DNA of 64,000 nucleotides from Neoarius graeffei (taxonomy: Eukaryota; Chordata; Actinopteri; Siluriformes; Ariidae). Shown here in pieces: positions 1 to 64,000 of this stretch. The stretch is from positions 68,582,871 to 68,646,870 of the forward strand of contig NC_083579.1 in NCBI RefSeq assembly GCF_027579695.1. The letters are read 5' to 3'. A model generated the notes under the pieces. That model was not told the DNA's origin and did no database searches. It worked only from the letters and a program-made list of their open reading frames with translations. A program made the translations under genes and the position numbers. The stretch's first letter is position 1, and every line of letters starts with the position of its first letter.

Positions 1-3000
1 AAGTTATGCGTCAATCAATTTTCGATGCAAAATTTTACATGCTTAAAAATTCATAACAAATCTTCTAGTTGCTCAAAACTGCTCATACTTCACACGCACA
101 TCACTCATTGGGCTTCTGACATGTTACCCAATTTCTGTGATATTTCGCCACTGGGGGCGCTATTTTTGGGCAAAAAATCCAATCTTTCCTCAAATTTGGT
201 CAAACTTCACGGCCACCCTCTTACTACCTCCCATGTCATGTCTACCACATTTGGGGTATTTTCGTCCATGGGGGCGCTGTTCTTGGCCGACGCAATTGCT
301 CCAAACCGGGTTTTTGGTAAATTATTCCATAATGCTTTCCCTTCACACCACTACCTTGTGATAGTACGTTGCTGTTGTAGACACTTATTTTACCAACTCA
401 TAATCGCTCATGTACAGCATAGCGCCACCTACTGACATGGGAAAAACCAAAAAATTTATTCTTCAAAAATCTATATCTCATCTTCTATTTACTCAATTGT
501 CATCAAACTTCATACGCAAACTCTTCATAGCTCACCTGACATATACGCCAAATTTTGTGCACTTTCGCCCCTGGGGGTGCTGGTTATGGCAAAAATGATA
601 TTGCAGCTTCTGATTTGTCAAACTTGGCAAACAAACTCTTTACAAGACCCTTTTTGGGGCGCTTGCCATGGTCGACAACGCACGAAATTTGGCTCCTTTT
701 TCTTAGACTGCCACCGCTACTGAGAACCAGAAGCCCAGATCCAGGCGGGCCTCAGGGCCTCTATAGAGCCCCCTAAGTCGTTGTGATTTTGGCCTCCCGC
801 ATAAAGGTGCCTGGTTGCCATGTCGTTTGTAGTAGTGGCATGCCATTTGGTACGCATATGTATCTCACTGAGCCGGACAAAAATGTAATGCCAATGCATT
901 AGCCACGCCCAACAGGAAGTGAGGTAATTTCACTTTTGTGCGAAATGCATGGCCACGAAGACGGCGCAACTCCTCCTAGGCCGTTCATAGGAATGTCACC
1001 AAAATTGATAGACATCATCTACAGAGATGGCTGACAAAAGTTCCTAAATACGTTTCACGTAGGATAAGCCGTTCAGAAGTTATACGTCAATCAATTTTCA
1101 ATGCAAAATTTTACATGCTTAAAAATTCATAACAAATCTTCTAATTGCTCAAAACTGCTCATACTTCACACGCAAATCACTCATTGGGATTCTGACATGC
1201 TACCCAAATTCTGTGATATTTCGCCACTGGGGGCGCTATTTTTGGGCAAAAAATCCAATCTTTCCTCAAATTTGGTCAAACTTCACGGCCACCCTCTTAC
1301 TACCTCCCATGTCATGTATACCCCATTTTGGGAATTTTCGTCCATGGGGGGCGCTGTTTTTGGCCGACGCAATTGCTCCAAAATGGGTTTTTGGTAAATA
1401 ACTCCATAATGCTTTTCCTTCACACCACTACCTTGTGATAGTACGTTGCTGTTGTAGACACTTATTGTTCCAACTCATAATCGCTCATGTACAGCATAGC
1501 GCCACCTACTGACATGGGAAAAACCAAAACATTTTTTCTTCAAAAATCAATATCTCATCTTCTATTTACTCAATCTTGATCAAACTTGATACGCTCACTC
1601 TTAACAGGTCACCTGACATATCTCCCAAATTTTGTAAACTTTTGCCACTGGGGGCGCTGTTTTCAGGCAACATTTTATATCTCGGCTTGTGATTGGTCAA
1701 ACTTGATCAAACTTGACACAACAACTCTTCATAGGTCCCTTGACATGTATACCAAATTTGGTGAACTTTCACCACTGGGGGCGCTCATTGCACTGTATCA
1801 GTTGCAGGAGAGGTGTTTACAATCATGAGGCACCAGTAGTATGTTGTTTTGGTTGCCTTAAACACACATGACTTGTGGGGAATGGGTAGGCAGTCGGGAG
1901 CAAGTGTTGTAGCGTTACATACAGACTAATAGATGTCTAACAGAAGACAATCCTATGTAGCTATAGCTTGGTGACTGATGAGGTAAATACATTAATTTGG
2001 TTGGGAAGCCATGGCATAAAATTTTCTGTCCATGACAACATCTCAGCGCACCGTGTACTCTGTGTCCGATTCTGTGCTTTGTCGCCATTGTGGGAGTAAT
2101 GTCTCTTGCCGAAGAAGCTGTGGAAGGTATTTCGCGGGGACGCATGCCCCCGCCCCCCTTGGCCGCTGGCGCGAGGGCCCGTCGAGGCCGCTTGCGGCTT
2201 TAATTAGGGCCCGAGCCCTATGGGCGAAGGCCCTATTGTTCTTGTAAGAGTTCACTATTATTATTCTTCTTCCGTCTTCTTCTTCTTCTTCTTCTTCCGT
2301 CTTCTTCTTCTTTATTTTTCTCCGCTGTTGGGCCATTTTCGGGGCGCTTGCCATGAGCGAAAACGCACGAAATTTGGCGCCAGTTCCGAGAATTGCCACC
2401 GCTACTCAGAACCAGAAGCCCAAACTTGGCCGGGGCTCCGGGCCTCTATAGCGCCCCCTAAGTCGTTGTGATTTTGGCCTCCCGCATTAAGGTGCCTGGG
2501 TGCCATGTAGTTTGTAGTAGTGGCATGCCATTTGGTAGACATATGTATCTCACTAAGCCGGACAGAAATGTAATGCCAATGCATTAGCCACGCCCAACAG
2601 GAAGTGAGGTACTTTCACTTTTGTGCGAAATGCATGGCCACGAAGACGGCGCAACTCCTCCTAGACCGTTCATAGGAATGTCACCAAAATTGATACACAT
2701 CATCTACAAGACATGGCTGACAAAAGTTACTAAATACGTTTCACGTAGGATAAACCGTTCAGAAGTTATACGTCAATAAATTTTCGATGCAAAATTTTAC
2801 ATGCTTAAAAATTCATAACAAATCTTATGATTGGTCAAAACTGCTCATACTTCACACGCAAATCACGCATTGGGCTTCTGACATGTTACCCAATTTCTGT
2901 GATATTTCGCCACTGGGGGCGCTATTTTTGGGCAAAAATTCCAATCTTTCCTCAAATTTGGTCAAACTTCACGGCCACCCTCTTACTACCTCCCATGTCA

Positions 3001-5938
3001 TGTATACCACATTTTGGGAATTTTCGTCCATGGGGGGCGCTGTTTTTGGCCGACGCAATTGCTCCAAAACGGGTTTTTGGTAAATAATTCCATAATGCTT
3101 TTCCTTCACACCACTACCTTGTGGTAATGTCTCTTGCCGAAGAAGCTGTGGAAGGTATTTCGCAGGGACGCATGCCCCCGCCCCCCTTGGCCGCTGGCGC
3201 GAGGGCCCGTCGAGGCCGCTTGCGGCTTTAATTATTCTTCTTCCTTCTTCTTCTTCTTCTTCTTCTTCCGTCTTCTTCTTCTTCTTTATTTTTCTCCGCT
3301 GTTGGGCCATTTTCGGGGCACTTGCCATGGGCGAAAACGCGCGAAATTTGGCGCCACTTCCGAGAATTGCCACCGCTACTCAGAACCAAAAGCCCACACT
3401 TGGCCGGGGCTCAGGGCCTCTATAGCGCCCCCTAAGTCGTTGTGATTTTGGCATCCCGCATTAAGGTGCCTGGTTGCCATATAGTTTGTAGTAGTGGCAT
3501 GCCATTTGGTATGCATATGTATCTCACTAAGCCGGACAAAAATGCAATGCCAATGCATTAGCCACGCCCAACAGGAAGTGAGGTAATTTCACTTTTGTGC
3601 GAAATGCATGGCCACGAAGACGGCGCAACTCCTCCTAGACCGTTCATAGGAATGTCACCAAAATTGATACACATCATCTACAGACATGGCTGACAAAAGT
3701 TACTAAATACGTTTCACGTAGGATAAACCGTTCAGAAGTTATACGTCAATCAATTTTCACTTCAAAATTTTACATGCTTAAAAATTCATAAATCTTCTAA
3801 TTGCTCAACACTGCTCATACTTCACACGCTAATCACTCATTGGGCTTCTGACATGTTACCCAATTTCTGTGATATTTCGCCACTGGGGGCGCTATTTTTG
3901 GGCAAAAATTCCAATCTTTCCTCAAATTTGGTCAAACTTCATGGCCACCCTCTTTCTACCTCCCATGTCATGTATACCACATTTTGGGAATTTTCGTCCA
4001 TGGGGGGCGCTGTTTTTGGCCGACGCAATTTCTCCAAAACGGGTTTTTGGTAAATAATTCCATAATGCTTTTCGTTCACACCACTACCTTGTGATAGTGC
4101 GTTGCTGTTGTGGACACTTATTTTTCCATCTCATAATCACTCATGTACAGCATAGCGCCACCTACTGACATGGGAAAAACCAAAAAAATTATTCTTCAAA
4201 AATCTATATCTCATCTTCTGTTTACTCAATTGTCATCAAACTTCATACGCGAACTCTTCATAGCTCACCTGACATGTACGCCAAATTTTGTGCACTTTCG
4301 CCCCTGGGGGTGCTGGTTATGGCAGAAATGATATTGCAGCTTCTGATTTGTCAATCTTGGCAAGCAAACTCTTTACAAGACCCTTTTTGGGGCGCTTGCC
4401 ATGGTCGACATCGCACTAAATTTGGCTCCTTTTTCTTAGACTCCCACCGCTATTGAGAACCAGAAGCCCAGATCCAGGCGGGCCTCAGGGCCTCTATAGC
4501 GCCCCCTAACTCATTGTGATTTTGGCCTCCCGCATTAAGGTGCCTGGTTGCCATGTAGTTTGTAGTAGTGGCATGCCATTTGGTACGCATATGTATCTCA
4601 CTAAGCCGGACAAAAATGTAATGCCAATGCATTAGCCACGCCCAACAGGAAGTGAGGTAATTTCACTTTTGTGCGAAATGCATGGCGACGAAGACGGCGC
4701 AACTCCTCCTAGACCGTTCATAGGAATGTCACCAAAATTGATACACATCATCTACAGACACGGCTGACAAAAGTTCCTAAATACGTTTCACGTAGAATAA
4801 ACCGTTCAGAAGTTATACGTCAATCAATTTTCAATGCAAAATTTTACATGCTTAAAAATTCATAACATATCTTCAAATTGCTCAAAACTGCTCATACTTC
4901 ACACGCAAATCACTCATTGGGCTTCTGACATGTTACCCAATTTCTGTGATATTTCGCCACTGGGGGCGCTATTTTTGGGCAAAAAATCCAATCTTTCCTC
5001 AAGTTTGGTCAAACTTCACGGCCACCCTCTTACTACCTCCCATGTCATGTTCACCACATTTTGGGAATTTTCGTCCATGGGGGGCGCTGTTTTTGGCCAA
5101 CGCAATTGCTCCGAAACAGGTTTTTGGTAAATAATTCCATAATGCTTCTCCTTCACACCACTACCTTCTGATAGTACTTTGCTGTTGTAGACACTTATTT
5201 TTCCAACTCATAATCGCTCATGTGCAGCATTGCGCCACCTTCTGACATGGGAAAAACCAAAACATTTATTCTTCAAAAATCAATATCTCATCTTCTATTT
5301 TCTCAATCTTGATCAAACTTGATAGGCACACTCTTAACAGGTCACCTGACATATGTGCCAAATTTTGTGAACTTTTGCCACTGGGGGCGCTGTTTTCAGG
5401 CAACAATTTATATCTCGGCTTCTGATTGGTCAAACTTGATCAAACTTTACAAAACAACTCTTCATAGGTCCCTTGACATGTATACCAAATTTGGTGAACT
5501 TTCTCCACTGGGGGCGCTCATTGCGCTGTAGCAGTTGCAGGAGAGGTGTTTACAATCATGAGGCACCAGGAGTATGTTGTTTTGGTTGCCTTAAAAACAC
5601 ATGACTTGTGGGGAATGGGTAGGCAGTCGGGAGCAAGTGTTGTAGCGTTACATACAGACTAATAGATGTCTAACAGAAGACAATCCTATGTAGCTTTAGC
5701 TTGGTGACTGATGAGGTAAATACATTAATTTGGTTGGGAGGCCATGGCATAAAATGTTCTGTCCATGACAACATCTCAGCGCACCGTGTACTCTGTGTCC
5801 AATTCTGTGCTTTGTCACCATTGTGGGAGTAATGTCTCTTGCCAAAGAAGCTGTGGAAGGTATTTCGCGGGGACGCATGCCCCCGCCCCCCTTGGCCGCT
5901 GGCGCGAGGGCCCGTCGAGGCCGCTTGCGGCTTTAATT
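1..5938. repeat. Tandem array of 1.0-1.7 kb satellite-like units
   Basis: A shared unit start (gttatacgtcaatcaatttt and variants) recurs near 3, 1,078, 2,764, 3,737 and 4,812, so spacing is about 1,075, 1,686, 973 and 1,075 bp. Each unit contains several sub-monomers of roughly 110-160 bp marked by 'ctgggggcgct', plus one in the opposite orientation ('agcgccccctaa'). Units 2, 3 and 5 contain a G+C-rich block with the hairpin gccgcttgcggc (2,187, 3,215, 5,920); in units 2 and 3 it is followed by a TTC-rich microsatellite. Unit 3 looks like a deletion derivative of unit 2. The array is open at the left edge. ORFs here are short and repeat-derived, and no gene is supported. Confidence 0.85.
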
Positions 5939-6287
5939 ATTATTATAACTCTTTAAACAACATATTTACCTTCTTTCATACTTTCCAAGTGGTGACTGAA
6001 GATGCGAGCTCTGAGCTGGAAGTTTTCTAGAAAGAAAGGAGGAAACTTTACCGCTCGGTAAATTTGATAAGGACACAGAAAAGTTACTGTGGATCAGAAA
6101 ACTGTGGGCGTCAACAGATTTTGAGTGACAGCACAGGACAAATCTTCTCTCTCTGTCTCTCTATCTGGCATATCACCGCAGTGATGTGGCTGCTCTGACA
6201 GCTCCAGCCATCAAAGTTTCTAGAGAAGGATTACAGTAGTGGTTTCCCGTTGCCTTCTACTGGATTATTATAGAGGTTTTCTCCTTT
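5939..6287. other. Unclassified stretch, no gene seen
   Basis: AT-rich non-coding sequence between the satellite array and a SINE fragment. It holds a short CT-rich tract near 6,145-6,170. No ORF, splice signal or recognised repeat was found. Confidence 0.4.
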
Positions 6288-8178: not shown

Positions 8179-8373
8179 TAGGGTGCATCAGTTGCCCCCT
8201 AAAAATGAAAAGTTCCTCCGATCATGATGCATTTTTGTTTATATGTTCCTTTTGGTAAGAAAACACACTGGGTGAAATATTTTGACAAAATTCAAAAGTT
8301 TAATGTAATGGGGGCACCAGGAGCTCAAAGTTATGGAAAAAGCTGCTATTTTATGACTTTTATGACAATTTCG

Positions 8374-9264
8374 TAGCCTAGTAAACTAGACCCACCCGCC
8401 TAGCGGCCAAAAATATTTTTTGCCTGCGAGTGGGTCTAGCCACGCACCATATCAACAAAACACCCCGGGCATCAAATCGTGCCCGCCAATCACAACACAA
8501 GGTTTTTGTTTGGATTCTTTGGGCGGGCTTTTGCAGGAGTGGCGACAAAGCTGCGCGACACTGGAGAAAGCACAACAGGAAAGATGGCTACGGCTAGTGA
8601 ACAGCGCGCGTTTGACTCCGCTTTGGAATCAGTTTTAGAAGAATTAGACTTGGAGTTTTCGTTGAAACATGAGCAGGAAGAGGCTCTCCGCTCATTCCTT
8701 TTCAAGAAGGACGTTTTCGCTGTTTTGCCGACCGGCTATGGCAAAAGTCTGATCTACCAGCTGGCTCCGCTCGTAGCCAAAAGGATGGGGCTAGTTTGTG
8801 CAGTACGAAGAATTAATAAACAGCTTTGAAACATTACTTTTTGATTGTTTCTTATTTTCCCGTTATTTTAAATTTAAGGGAAATTATTTCACCAAACACC
8901 ACTAAATAAAAACTCTCAAAAACAGTTTAAGCAAACCCTTGAAAAACACTTGAAAAAAATAAGTGTATGTTAAGTATGTGGTACAGACTCCAAACTTGTG
9001 GTCATTATCTCCAAACTTCTTAATACCTAGAACCTGTTTATTAATTAATACGCATTTTGAAAAATTATTTATTTCAAGGCCTCCCCCACTGCTTTCTGTC
9101 GCTCTGACTACGTCACAGTCACTGTTGCGCTGATTGGTCAGAGCGTTGGCCTATACGCACAGAGACAGTTTGAAAGACAGCGGGTTGTTCCACCCCCACC
9201 CGTCGGAAATGTCTACGAGCGAGGCCAGACTAAATATTCACATTTAGTCTGGCTTGCCAGGCTA
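8374..9264 (+). mobile_element. TIR element carrying a RecQ-like helicase N-terminus
   Basis: Ends are tagcctagtaaactagac and the reverse complement of tagcctggcaagccagac, an imperfect TIR of about 18 bp with its own small palindromes. Flanks ACAATTTCG (8,365) and ACAATTTTG (9,265) look like a 9 bp target duplication with one change. The 0.89 kb element holds one coding piece, a RecQ-type helicase start, and no recognisable transposase. The superfamily is undecided; 9 bp duplications are typical of Mutator-like elements, but this is inference. Confidence 0.65.
8584..8829 (+). pseudogene. RecQ-family helicase N-terminal fragment
   Basis: From the ATG at 8,584 the reading frame gives an acidic, serine-poor start, then 'LKHEQEEALRSFLFKKDVFA', 'LPTGYGKSLIYQL' and 'APLVAKRMG'. 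The second stretch is a Walker A / helicase motif I of the RecQ type (GYGKS with following IYQL), and the preceding QEEAL matches the Q-motif region (motif 0). Homology ends near 8,793; motifs Ia-VI are absent, so no active helicase can be made. It lies wholly within the TIR element, so it was carried or captured by the element and is not a host locus in this place. Confidence 0.75.
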
Positions 9265-9698
9265 ACAATTTTGATCACTTTTCATGAAACATTATGGCAC
9301 CTTATAGAGTAGACCAAATATCTTAGATACACATTTTTAGTACATATTCTAAATATATTATCAAGCACAGTTTGAGTTTTAGCTGTTCATTGAATCATTG
9401 TTCAACTACTTTTAAACAATACAAATGTATTATGAATCACATTAATGCTTCTCAATCCCTTGCAAAGGTTCTTAACATGATCTCTGGCTCACAAGAAATG
9501 GAGTCCAACATTGTGATTCAAACCTTACGCGAAAACATAAAATAAGCGGTTTTTGGCAAAAAAATGAACCTCATGGTGCCACCATTAGACTTTTGAATAT
9601 GGTCAAAAAATTTTACAGGATGTCTTTATTGGTGAAAAGGAACACCCAAACAAAAATGCATCAGATTTTATGAAAGTGAGGGCAACTGATGCACCCTA

Positions 9699-21958: not shown

Positions 21959-22599
21959 TATTTAATAGTGCCACCAGATATGTCCCCTTTGCCATCCCCG
22001 TTATGAAAAAAAAAAACCAGACAAACCACACCTTGTACCTGTATGAGCCTTTGTCTCACATGACAATAAAATAAGGCAGTGCCAGAGTGACGTAATTTTA
22101 TTTGTCTGTGAGGGAGGTGCAGGAGCTCATGGGTGATGATTGTATTTGCAGAGACCAGATGGGTCCAGAAGCTCGAGAGCGGAGGAGAGGTGATGTAGGC
22201 ACAGAGGGGCTCAGGGGGATCGGGTTACACAAAATGGAACCTAGTTTGTAAGGGTATCACATCACTATCCATGATCCACAGCCATTTTATCTTCAAGGAG
22301 GCATACACAAAATATAAAGCATTACTTCAAGAGAAATTATTAGGCTTTTTAAAAGATTTAATTTGTGTGACCATGTAAAAATGTTAGTTTGCTAAATGTA
22401 TGTGTGTAATATTATGTAGGAACCTTCACAGACGTTAATGACCACACCAGTTCTGAAAAACATTTGTCTGCTTATTTACAATCTTATTATTATGTTTTGT
22501 ATGGTTTGCAATGTTGGATTGGATTCTCTCTTTGATGTGAAATATGTGAGCGAATAGCCAGTGGGCTCTTTACAAATTAATCATTCATTTATTCATTTT
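21959..22599. other. Unclassified stretch, no gene seen
   Basis: AT-rich sequence with an A-run near 22,005 and no ORF above background. Confidence 0.35.
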
Positions 22600-25310
22600 T
22601 AAGCCCCGCTGGCCAAAAGGCCCGAAGGAGGATTATGTCGTGGCAATGTCGGTCCCAGGAAGGGTGCTCACCTTCTGAAATCAGCTCCTCTCACAATTTT
22701 TGGAGGAATTTCACAAAACTTGGCAGGATTCTTTGTTATATGTCGGTACTACGCATATTGTAATTTTGTTAAATTCAGTCTCATTTTACCAGAGTTACAG
22801 CCCTTGATTAACAAAATTATAATTTGACAATTTCATGAGTGTGTTTTCCTTCTGAAATCAACTCCTCTCACAATTTTTGGAGGAATTTCACCAAACTTGG
22901 CAAAAGGTCTTGTTGTATGTCGGTAGTACACGTTGTTATTTTGTTCAATTCGGTCACATTTTACCAGAGTTACAGCCCTTGATTAACAACCTTGTACTTT
23001 CACAATTTCATGAAGGTGTGCTCGGTTTCTGACATCAACTCCTCTCACAATTTTTGGATGAATTTCTCGAAGCTTGGCAAAAGGCCTTGTTATATGACAG
23101 TAATATGCATATTGCGATTTAATTTCATTTGTGAAAATTTTCCCCAGAGTTTTGACCCTTGATTAAATAACTTGTACTTTGACAATTTCATGAGGGTGTA
23201 CGTTCTTCTGAAATCAACTCCTCTCACAATTTGTGGAGGAATTTCACCAAACTTGGCAACCGGCTTTGTTATATGACAGTTATACGCATATTGAAATTTC
23301 GTTTAATTTGGGGAAATTTTACCAGAGTTATGCCCTTGATTATTAACAAACTTGTACTTTGGCAGTTTCATCAAGATGCGCTTGCTTTTTGAAATCAACT
23401 CCCCTCATAATTTTTACCCCCCGCTGGCCGAAAGGCCCGAAGGGGGATTATGTCTTGGTGATGTCCGTCCGTCCGTCCGTCCGTCCATCCCAGGAAGGGT
23501 ACTCACCTTCTGAAATCAACTCCTTTCACAATTTTTGGAGGAACTTCACAAAACTTGGCAGGATTCTTTGTTATATATGTCAGTGATACACAATGTAATT
23601 TTGTTAAATTCAGTCTCATTTTACCAGAGTTGCAGCCCTTGTTTAACAAAATTATAATTTGACAATATCATGAGTGTGTTTTCCTTCTGAAATCAACTCC
23701 TCTCACAATATTTGGAGGAATTTCACCAAGCTTGGCAAAAGGTCTTGTTGTATGTCGGTAGTACACATAGTGTTTTGTTCAATTCGGTTGCATTTTACCA
23801 GAGTTCAAGCCCTTGATTAACAACCTTGTACTTTCACAATTTCATGAAGGTGTGCTCGGCTTCTGACATCAACTCCTCTCTCAATTTTTGGATGAATTTC
23901 TCGAAGCTTGGCAAAAGGCCTTGTTATATGACGGTAATACGCATAATTGCGATTTAATTTCATTTGTGAAAATTTTCCCAGAGTTTTGACCCTTGATTAA
24001 ATAACTTGTACTTTGACAATTTCATGAGGGTGTACGCTCTTCTGAAATCAACTCCTCTCACAATTTGTGGAGGAATTTCACCAAACTTGGCAAAAGGCTT
24101 TGTTATATGACAGTTATACGCATATTGAAATTTCGTTTAATTTGGGGAAATTTTACCAGAGTTATGCCCTTGATTATTAACAAACTTTGGCAGTTTCATC
24201 AAGATGCGCTTGCTTTTTGAAATCAACTCCCCTCATCATTTTTACCCCCCGCTGGCCGAAAGGCCCGAAGGGGGATTATGTCTTGGTGATGTCCGTCCGT
24301 CCGTCCATCCCAGGAAGGGTACTCACCTTCTGAAATCAACTCCTTTCACAATTTTTGGAGGAACTTCACAAAACTTGGCAGGATTCTTTGTTATATATGT
24401 CAGTGATACACAATGTAATTTTGTTAAATTCAGTCTCATTTTACCAGAGTTGCAGCCCTTGTTTAACAAAATTATAATTTGACAATATCATGAGTGTGTT
24501 TTCCTTCTGAAATCAACTCCTCTCACAATATTTGGAGGAATTTCACCAAGCTTGGCAAAAGGTCTTGTTGTATGTCGGTAGTACACAGTGTTTTGTTCAA
24601 TTCGGTTGCATTTTACCAGAGTTCCAGCCCTTGATTAACAACCTTGTACTTTCACAATTTCATGAAGGTGTGCTCGGCTTCTGACATCAACTCCTCTCAC
24701 AATTTTTGGATGAATTTCTCGAAGCTTGGCAAAAGGCCTTGTTATATGACGGTAATACGCATACTGCGATTTAATTTCATTTGTGAAAATTTTCCCAGAG
24801 TTTTGACCCTTGATTAAATAACTTGTACTTTGACAATTTCATGAGGGTGTACGTTCTTCTGAAATCAACTCCTCTCACAATTTGTGGAGGAATTTCACCA
24901 AACTTGGCAAAAGGCTTTGTTATATGACAGTTATACGCATATTGAAATTTCGTTTAATTTGGGGAAATTTTACCAGAGTTATGCCCTTGATTATTAACAA
25001 ACTTGTACTTTGGCAGTTTCATCAAGATGCGCTTGCTTTTGGAAATCAACTCCCCTCATAATTTTTACCCCCCGCTGGCCGAAAGGCCCGAAGGGGGATT
25101 ATGTCTTGGTGATGTCCGTCCGTCCATCCGTCCGTCCATCCCAGAAAGGGTGCTCACCTTCTGAAATCAGCTCCTCACAATTTTTGGAGGAATTTCACAA
25201 AACTTGACAGGATTCTTTGTCATATGTCGGTAATACGCATATTGTAATTTCATTAAATTCTGTCACATTTTCCCAGAGTTATGGCAGAGTTGCCAGCGGG
25301 GGATATTGTG
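22600..25310 (+). repeat. Higher-order tandem repeat: about 176 bp monomers in about 820 bp units
   Basis: The unit marker 'gctggccgaaaggcccgaag' (or a variant) occurs at about 22,608, 23,421, 24,250 and 25,074, giving unit lengths near 813, 829 and 824 bp. In each unit the phrase 'gaaatcaactcctctcacaa' and variants recur about every 176 bp, with 'accagagttacagcccttga' closing each monomer. A short gtcc microsatellite follows the marker in units 2-4. Neighbouring units are more alike at equal positions than neighbouring monomers are, which defines a higher-order repeat. No coding capacity. Confidence 0.85.
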
Positions 25311-29681: not shown

Positions 29682-51710
<22,029 letters not shown>

Positions 51711-55353: not shown

Positions 55354-55542
55354 GCCCAGCACACACCTTCCCGATTTCATTGGGGCTTCGTGTGTCGGGC
55401 GATCGGTTACGAGTATACGGGCCCGATTTGATCGGTTCAAAATTCCCCGCACACATTTGCGAGACATCGTACATGTTCAGCCCGAATAGATGGTCACGTG
55501 TTCAAGATATCATGTGATAATACAAAAGAAAAAAAATATATA

Positions 55543-57163
55543 CAGTGGTATGCAAAAGTTTGGGCACCCATGGTCAAAATTGCTGTTACTGTGAACAGTT
55601 AAGCAAGTTGAAGATGAAATGATCTCCAAAAGGCATAAAGTTAAAGATGACTCATTCCCTTAATATTTTAAGCAAAAACAATGTTTTAATTTTCATCTTT
55701 TACATTTTCTAAATGACAAAAAAGGAAAAGGGCCCAAAGCAAAAGTTTGGACACCCTGCATGGTTAGTACCTAGTAACACCCCCTTTGGCAAGTATCACA
55801 GCTTGTAAACACTTTTTGTAGCCAGCTAATAATCTTTCAGTTCTTACCTGGGGGATTTTCGTGCATTTGTCCTTGCAAAAGGCTTCTAGTTCTACAAGTT
55901 CCTTGGGCTGTCTTGCATGCACTGCTCTTTTGAGATCTATCCACAGATTTTCAATGATGTTTAGGTCAGGAGACTGTGAGGGCCAGGGCAAAACCTTCAG
56001 CTTGTGCCTCTTGAGGTATTCCATTGTAGATTTTGAGGTGTGTTTTGGATCATCATCTTATTGTAGGACCCATCCTCTTTTTAACTTCAACTTTTTTACA
56101 GATGGTATGATGTTTGCTTCCAGAATTTGCTGGTATTTATTTGAATCCATGCTTCCCTCAACCAATGAAATGTGCCCTGTGGCACTGGCTGCAACACAAC
56201 CCCAAAGCATGATTGATCCACACCCATGCTTCAGAGTTGGAGAGGTGTTCTTTTCCTGGAATTTGACACCCTTTTTTCTCCAAACATACCTTTGCACATT
56301 GTGACCAAAAAGTTCTATTTTGATTTCATCAGTCCACAGGACTTGTTTCCAAAATGCATCAGGCTTATTTAGATGTTCATTTGCAAACTTCAGACGCTGA
56401 ATTTTGTGGCTAGGACATAGGAAAGGTTTTCTTCTGATGACTCTTCCATGAGGGTCATATTTGTTCAGGTGTTGCTGCATAGTAGAACAGTGCACCACCA
56501 CTCCAGGGTCTGCTAAATCTTTCTAAAAGTCTTTTGTAGTCCAACAGGGGTTTTTATTTGCCTTTCCAGCAATCTAACAAGCAGTTCTTTCAGAAAGTTT
56601 TCTTCATCTTCCAGACCTCACCTTGATCTCCACTGTTTCTGTTAACTGCCATTTCTTAATAAATTACAATCTGAGGAAACAGCTACCTGAAAACACTTTG
56701 CTACATTCTTGTAGCCTTCTCCTGCATTGTGAGCATCAATTATTTTATTATTCAGAATGCGAGGGAGTTGCTTAGAGGAGCCCATGGCTGTTGATTTTAG
56801 GGACAAGTTTGAGGAGTCAGAGAATTTATACAGCTTTGAAATCTGCATCATCTGACCTTTCCTAATGAAGAATTTGAACAAGCCACAGCTCAATAAGCTA
56901 ATTAAGGTCTAGAACCTTGGTAAAAGTTACCTGAGAACTCAAATGTATTGGGGTGCCCAAACTTTCGCATGGTGTTCCTTTTCTTTTTTCACTCTCCAAT
57001 TGTACAAAACAAAAATAATACACAAATCTTGCAGAAAACACTGAAAAGAAATGTGTCGTCTTTACCTTTATGCCTTTTGGCGATCAGTTCATCTTCTGCT
57101 CACTTAACTATTCACAGTAACAGACATTTTCAGTAAGGGTGCCCAAACTTTTGCATGCCACTG
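55543..57163 (-). mobile_element. Tc1 element, family T1, copy B
   Basis: Same ends as copy A with TA flanks; about the same length (1.62 kb) and highly similar throughout. Confidence 0.93.
55764..56785 (-). pseudogene. Tc1 transposase pseudogene, copy B
   Basis: Same layout as copy A. It keeps the third catalytic residue (NIIENLW) and 'VLWTDEIKIELFG', but has a stop before DDDPKH (near 56,057), a stop near 56,520 and a frame change near 56,660. Confidence 0.87.
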
Positions 57164-57616
57164 TACATACATAGAGAAGTATTAAATTTTGAATATTCGA
57201 ATCAAAAAGGGATAATCCCAACTAGACAAATCAATAATAAGAATTGATTCTAATTTGTTCAATCGTTCTTAAAATTCAACGGCATTTTCAAAGCTGGCAC
57301 GATCGTTCCTCTTTTCCCGTTTGCTGTAATCAGGTGAACTAATGTCATAAAGACAGGTGGACGCTTCCCAAAGTGACACAAATTGTGCTTCCCGGTCTGC
57401 AGTCCACGTGTGATCAATCCTGGCACTCCAATTGGCTGTTTAAAATTATCGTAACTGATGAGATCGTAGTAACAATGCACACACTACTGATTGTGTTGTG
57501 TACGAGGAGATCACGTCTGAAAATATCAAGACCAGTTTGATCTGAACCGAGCAGCCGAGAACTGATGAAATCGGCTACGAGGTGGCCCCGCACACATTTA
57601 TGATTCGCAAGCGATT

Positions 57617-61966: not shown

Positions 61967-62915
61967 ACCTCTGTTTACAGAGCCTGGTGTGATACACAGC
62001 ACAACACTGAACATCTGGATGCAGCGTGCATTCAATTTCCTCAGATGTTCCAAGAAGAGTGCACACTTCACCGAGTTCACTACGCCTTTAATGGTGTCCA
62101 GGCTGTTACCCATAATTCCGTGCTTTGTTTCCAGCTGCCTGTCTAATGGCCTGTTTGGAGAGACAGACAGACAGTGGTGTGGGACTGCTGTGAGACACTT
62201 TTATTCGCATTCTCATGACACACACATGCTGAACAGTGAGCGAGATAAATAAAGATGTGTTTTTGTTCTTGAAATGCTTATAACGCTGATAGTTAAGCGA
62301 TGATTGGGAGCCTTATTTATTATGGGCTGTATCCTCTAACCCAACTCTTCATTAGGCTCTCAGGTAAGCTTTACGTGTGTACATGTTCCAGTCTCACACT
62401 CCTCTCTCAGCTAGCTAACTTTTATGAGCTTAGCAACACTGCTAACTGCTTTGCTTTGCTTTACTTTACATTCTTCTCATTACATTTACTCTCACGCAAT
62501 ATCAGTTATTAAATTCGTACGGAATTAAATAACCACGTGTAAAAATATCAGCTTTACTGGTGTCTTTTCACACGCTTTTGTTTGACAAGAAAACAAGCGA
62601 TGAGCTAATAAAAGCTAGCTACATGGCCAAACACTAGGGTTGTGTTCCAAACGGCGTCCTATTTCCTGTACGAGTGCACTTGATAGTGTATGAAATAATG
62701 ACTTGTACACACTCGTTATAGCACTACATGGCCAATAGAGGGAGTATTTGTGATTCGTCCTGGTTGTGGTGTTTTTACTCAGAAAATGGAGATAAATTGC
62801 TTTTATTATTCTTTCTGCAGCTGCCTGTGGTTGTTTTTAATAAACATGGGTGTTTTTAAAGTCAACAATGCGATGAAAAATAAAGATCTGAATTAAATTT
62901 AACCTGTTGAAAGTA
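61967..62915. other. Mostly unclassified; one possible coding start on the minus strand
   Basis: A minus-strand frame from 62,113 reads MGNSLDTIKGVVNSVKCALF and LEHLRKLNARCIQMFSVVLC before running into the hAT end. MGNS could be a myristoylation start and the composition is protein-like, but I do not recognise the protein and no splice sites are decisive. The rest (62,300-62,900) shows no gene. Confidence 0.25.
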
Positions 62916-62919
62916 CACA

Positions 62920-63754
62920 CAGTGGTATGCAAAAGTTTGGGCACCCCTGGTCAAAACTGCTCTTACTGTGAACAGTTAAGCAAGTTGAAGATGAAATGAT
63001 CTCCAAAAGGCATAAAGTTAAAGATGACTCATTCCATTTATATTTTAAGCAAAAACTTTTTTCATCTTTTACGTTTTCAAAATGGAAAAGGGTCCGAAGC
63101 AAAAGTTTGGGCACCCTGCATGGTCAGTACCTAGTAACACCCTCTTTGGCAAGTATCACAGCTTGTAAACACTTTTTGTCGCCAGATAATAATCTTTCAG
63201 TTCTTACCTGGGGGATTTTCACACATTCGTCCTTGCAAAAGGCTTCCAGTTCTACAAGTTTCTTGGGCCGTCTTGCATGCACTGCTCTTTTTTAAACAGA
63301 TTTTCAATGATGTTTAGGTCAGGGGACTGTGAGGGCCCGGGCAAAACCTTCAGCTTGTGCCTCGAGGTATTCCATTGTAGATTTTGAGGTGTGTTTTGGA
63401 TCATCGTCTTATTGTAGGACCCGTCCTCTTTTTAACTTCAACTTTTTTACAGATGGTGTGATGTTTGCTTCCAGAGTTTGCTGGTATTTATTCGAATCCA
63501 TGCTTCCCTCGACCGATGAAATGTGCCCTGTGCCACTGGCTGCAACACAACCCCAAAGCATGATCGATCCACACCCATGCTTCAGAGTTGGACAGGTGTT
63601 CTTTGTGGCCAAAAAGTTCTATTTTGATTTCATCAGTCCACAGGACTTGTTTCCAGAATGCATCAGGTTTATTTAGATGTTCATTTGCAAACTTCAGACG
63701 CTGAATTTTGTAGCTAGGACGCAGGAAAGGTTTTCTTCTGGTGACTCTTCCATG
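62920..63754 (-). mobile_element. Tc1 element, family T1, copy C, truncated
   Basis: Same left end as copies A and B, ending abruptly at 'gactcttccatgaa', about half way. The transposase part has several small deletions (for example near 63,290 and 63,605). Confidence 0.9.
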
Positions 63755-64000
63755 AAGAAGAAACCTTTATTCGTCACATGCACATTTCAAGCACAGTGAG
63801 ATTCATCCTCTGCATTTAACCCGTCTGAAGCAGTGAACACACACGTGCGCACACACTCAGAGCAGTGGGCAGCCGCACTACAGCGCCCGGGGAGCAGTCA
63901 GGGGTCAGGTATCTTGCACAAGGGCACTTCGGCCCAAGGCCGCCCCAGGTTAACCTAACTTTGGACTGTGGGGGAAACCCACGCAGACACAGTGAGAACA
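63755..64000 (-). mobile_element. SINE subfamily 2, reaching the window edge
   Basis: Reverse-strand tail ('acctttattcgtcacatgca', 'ctgcatttaacccgtctgaa') and part of the core. It truncates Tc1 copy C and continues past the right edge. Confidence 0.8.

Follow-up and report, generated by a model that had tools for sequence, protein, structure and literature searches.

A defective RecQ-bearing DNA transposon in Neoarius graeffei, probably related to AcademH

A short element with inverted ends in the genome of Neoarius graeffei was found to enclose the first part of a RecQ-type helicase gene, which raises the question of whether this coding piece comes from a parent transposon or from a host gene, and of which kind of transposon such a parent might have been. 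Within the whole 64,000-nucleotide stretch of DNA analyzed here (the window), the following features were assigned to the element:

8374..9264, defective element of 0.89 kb with terminal inverted repeats (TIRs) and a 9-bp target-site duplication (TSD)
8365..8373, unstranded, left TSD ACAATTTCG, matching 9265-9273 at 8/9 positions
8374..8391, plus strand, left TIR TAGCCTAGTAAACTAGAC, 14/18 against the right end
8584..8796, plus strand, opening 71 codons of a RecQ-type helicase gene, comprising the ATG, motif 0 and the motif I region (LPTGYGKSLIYQL)
8797..8829, plus strand, end of the frame, reading CAVRRINKQL followed by a stop, past the RecQ homology
9247..9264, minus strand, right TIR TAGCCTGGCAAGCCAGAC, read inwards
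9265..9273, unstranded, right TSD ACAATTTTG

The two 18-bp TIRs are imperfect, and all four mismatches between them are transitions. The termini read TAGCC..GGCTA, so that both the first and the last letters are TA. In this single copy the flanking duplication can be written as ACAATTT[C/T]G, and among the lengths of 3–12 tried, 9 bp alone fits. A preliminary description of the locus had placed matched inverted ends and a likely 9-bp duplication at 8374-9264, and these coordinates proved to be right. It had also regarded the motif 0/motif I region of a RecQ helicase as the only coding piece of the element. One coding piece, 8584-8796, was recognized here: recQ_fam was the best of the four NCBIfam models listed for 8584-8796 (E 1.1e-10, residues 26–72), the remaining ones being two RecQ models and DpdF. 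When a longer frame of 116 amino acids was searched, Pfam DEAD scored 25.5 bits (E 1.3e-5), just below its 26-bit cut-off. Matches to Q5, BLM, Q1, and WRN were also obtained in PDB (E 1e-4 to 6e-3), and those to RAD25/XPB were weaker, below about 18 bits. The ATG at 8584 lies 210 bases inward of the left end. No transposase was recognized within the element.

In GTDB genome contigs, 298 of the 488 stretches that fit the peptide pattern encode relatives, and the best 80 of these 298 are, by their titles, bacterial records; this supports the RecQ homology and does not show a parent transposon. The best relative (28/46, i.e., 61% over 46 residues) comes from a metagenome-assembled genome labeled Planctomycetota, where its contig measures 3.6 kb and has long reading frames in both orientations. 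RecQ-like frames from nine bacterial loci (9 of the 80 fetched) were used as comparison queries, and all nine matched the helicase piece with E < 1e-6. With the same nine frames, no further RecQ piece was detected in the window below E 0.2, the next match having E 0.22. Among viral contigs, 30 stretches fit the peptide pattern and none of them was a relative, and the exact 18-base end had no match there; plasmids gave no match either. A second copy of the element was not seen in the window.

In most comparisons, the RecQ homology ends at about residue 71–73, where the next RecQ motif is expected. Eight of the nine bacterial frames stop matching at 8775-8805, and the ninth (L063) stops at 8835, past the proposed breakpoint. 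After GLV (aligned residue 71), the nine bacterial frames read (I/V)(S/D/A)PL, and the element reads CAVRRINKQL followed by a stop. Apart from the L063 match to 8835, no later RecQ motif was detected in the remaining 468 bases of the element; a deletion is therefore preferred, and an intron after residue 71 is disfavored. On the sequence evidence, the most likely interpretation is an internally deleted copy with a breakpoint near 8796-8802. Since the helicase is broken off after the motif I region, the copy is unable to make a working enzyme. Its layout consists of a short leader, the ATG, the first helicase motifs, an abrupt loss of homology, and the far end, as in a transposon that has become non-autonomous through internal deletion.

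Considering these features together, the element is probably non-autonomous and derived by internal deletion from a cut-and-paste transposon whose left-hand gene encoded a RecQ-type helicase, and this parent most likely belonged to the AcademH lineage of the Academ superfamily. AcademH is reportedly present in animals and fungi, judging by the title of a 2020 article by Kojima (Mob DNA 11:15) as it appears in reference lists. “RecQ Helicase in Academ” is named in an excerpt of PMC3627910. According to a section of PMC10045372, AcademH has TSDs of 9 or 10 bp and AcademX has TSDs of 3 or 4 bp, and it is suggested there that these lengths stem from the helicase of AcademH and the nuclease of AcademX. 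Academ transposons have also been reported in Xiphophorus fish (southern platyfish), with the lineage unspecified in the relevant passage (PMC4705583). The element has both a RecQ-type (SF2) helicase, represented by its first 71 residues only, and a TSD of 9 bp, seen in one copy with 8/9 agreement. Because no transposase is present in the element and no second copy in the window, its membership in AcademH is something that we infer; we regard the relationship as probable on the two features that agree, the helicase and the 9-bp duplication. The preliminary description had offered two options, a parent encoding a RecQ-like helicase or captured host sequence, and had suggested that the parent could be of a new kind. 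The first option is the likelier one. The idea of an undescribed kind found no support, as RecQ helicases in Academ/AcademH and in KolobokH are already in print and the 9-bp TSD agrees with the length given for AcademH. Most probably, then, the element is an ordinary relic left by a kind of transposon that has already been described.

It is also conceivable, but unlikely, that the autonomous parent belonged to another superfamily with 9-bp TSDs, such as a MULE-like one, and had its own ends and an acquired accessory RecQ gene. Duplications of 9 bp are usual for MULEs, and the element has a TSD of this length. Accessory genes are known to cross superfamily borders, as described for TET/JBP genes moving between transposon superfamilies in fungi (excerpt of PMC12730594); on the other hand, a described lineage, AcademH, already joins a helicase with a 9–10 bp TSD (PMC10045372, in part), and the literature on RecQ together with MULE/Mutator transposons yielded a DNA repair review and a survey of the RNase H-like superfamily.

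Quite unlikely, too, is a capture event, in which an unrelated short TIR element picked up the start of a host RecQ gene in the manner of Pack-MULEs. TIR elements do capture gene pieces, and here the 71-codon piece alone is present. Several observations argue mildly against such an origin. The PDB bit scores are spread over Q5 (25.6), BLM (23.9), 1oyw (22.5; we take this to be E. coli RecQ), Q1 and WRN (both about 21), and Q4 (18.3), without a clear winner among them; the solved Q5 helicase is identical to the piece at 18/31 residues, compared with 28/46 for the best bacterial match; and the piece opens at an ATG and continues to the breakpoint in an unbroken frame. Moreover, the helicase domain is located far from the start codon in BLM, WRN, and RECQL4, which was counted against capture. 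Judged against the PDB entries and the bacterial frames, an origin of the piece by recent capture from a single host RecQ gene appears less likely.

A further and rather speculative possibility is a vertebrate lineage with 9-bp TSDs that acquired RecQ independently of AcademH and KolobokH, in which the helicase would be the first gene at the left and hairpin-forming, self-complementary termini would be processed with the help of the helicase. Two subterminal stem-loops were predicted, both of which overlap the TIR with their outer arm:

8386..8439, plus strand, left subterminal stem-loop, arms 8386-8399 and 8426-8439, z -3.80
9224..9253, plus strand, right subterminal stem-loop, arms 9224-9235 and 9242-9253, z -4.21

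In single-stranded DNA folding, none of 200 shuffles folded as well as the left stem-loop, and one of 200 folded as well as the right one. CCAAT boxes pointing inward were also observed near both ends (8486, plus strand; 9133, minus strand), with approximately 1.7 estimated by chance.

The inverted ends were then compared with those of random sequence. Under loose criteria (TIR at least 7/8, TSD at least 8/9, length 600–1300), the window contained seven TIR and TSD pairs, and the five first-order Markov controls contained 1, 4, 4, 2, and 1, respectively. Under strict criteria (TIR at least 14/18, length 300–3000), there were ten pairs in the window, nine of them besides the element, versus three in 17 Markov controls, only 2 of which contained any pair. 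The window is transposon-rich and full of other repeats, and TIR and TSD pairs of similar quality are present elsewhere in it. As comparable pairs arise in both the window and the controls, a TIR with a TSD is by itself weak evidence and no proof of an element. These counts would suit the view that the locus is unrelated sequence with accidental inverted ends; nevertheless, the ends, two stem-loops, a 9-bp TSD, and an enclosed helicase start all coincide here, which leaves chance very improbable.

The RecQ-bearing element was found to be part of a nested arrangement, in which two more features were recognized:

8179..9698, unstranded, hAT-like host element with ends TAGGGTGCATCAG..CTGATGCACCCTA and a perfect 8-bp duplication CTGCCCAC
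8817..9040, unstranded, AT-rich segment whose ends (TAAACAG[C/G]TT) match at 9/10 positions, with TTAA at 8813-8816 and 9041-9044

We named the outer element hAT-like on the basis of its ends and TSD length, and its target looks to us like a SINE. Its arms align, with gaps, across about 200 columns, and the RecQ-bearing element is located between its ends. As further support for the RecQ-bearing element, the GC content is 50% in its left part (8374-8812), compared with 36% and 34% in the surrounding hAT-like arms, although it is 29% in the middle (8817-9040). A post hoc test covered 1244 TTAA pairs located 100–600 bp apart in the window, and none but the pair bounding 8817-9040 enclosed matching ends of this kind. 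This segment is probably a small nested element, i.e., a third and younger insertion; if so, the RecQ-bearing derivative would be approximately 0.66 kb long.

Several other repeats were observed in the window. Positions 1-5939 form a tandem-like block with copies about 91–96% identical at offsets of about 1.0–1.1, 2.7, and 3.7 kb, and positions 22593-25280 form a block of internal repeats (about 93–95% identical, offsets of 0.8 and 1.6 kb). Three related copies, 91–96% identical, are located at 36980-38609, 55541-57169, and 62910-63757; their partial frames look to us like Tc1-type transposase, as does a further frame of 319 amino acids at 40198-41157. Such SINE and Tc1-like content fits fish DNA.

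A possible history of the locus may be proposed. The parent would have had a short 5' leader, a start codon, and the helicase gene inside its left end. A full-length relative may have supplied transposase in trans, with the helicase as an accessory, and this transposase might have bound the short copy at its inverted motifs, both terminal and subterminal. The copy would then have been excised and, through a cut staggered by 9 bp, inserted into the hAT-like element, which was already in place; later, the copy itself probably received a TTAA-type insertion. No sign of present activity was observed in the element. Although the copy itself is a short relic, it points toward an Academ relative with a helicase, probably in a fish, of which autonomous copies might still be recoverable. 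Such a vertebrate example could help test the enzyme-based suggestion about TSD length made in the cited section of PMC10045372.

Comparison with known systems was made through the parts of the sources cited. The subtelomeric RecQ helicases of fungi, multi-copy core genes outside the standard set, resemble the element in their RecQ helicase; they are fungal and are described, in the excerpt of PMC7473861, without a TIR/TSD element. Fungal IS3EU has a 6-bp duplication and TAYGG..CCRTA ends (PMC12730594, in part), and was ruled out by the 9-bp TSD and TAGCC..GGCTA ends found here. A KolobokH-type origin (Kolobok with RecQ helicase) is extremely improbable: according to the excerpt of PMC9587614, KolobokH and one red-alga Kolobok do encode a RecQ helicase, a feature shared by the element, but Kolobok duplicates TTAA and has RR..YY termini, and KolobokH has been reported from fungi only, whereas the 9-bp TSD and the TA ends of the element exclude it if the boundaries are right. 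With MULE/MuDR elements, the element shares a TSD of about 9 bp. AcademX, which belongs to the same Academ superfamily, differs by encoding a nuclease and by its TSD of 3–4 bp in the description cited above. The present copy differs from AcademH, known here through the descriptions in citing papers, in having no transposase and lacking nearly all of the helicase; it resembles this lineage in the combination of an encoded helicase with a TSD within the 9–10 bp range.
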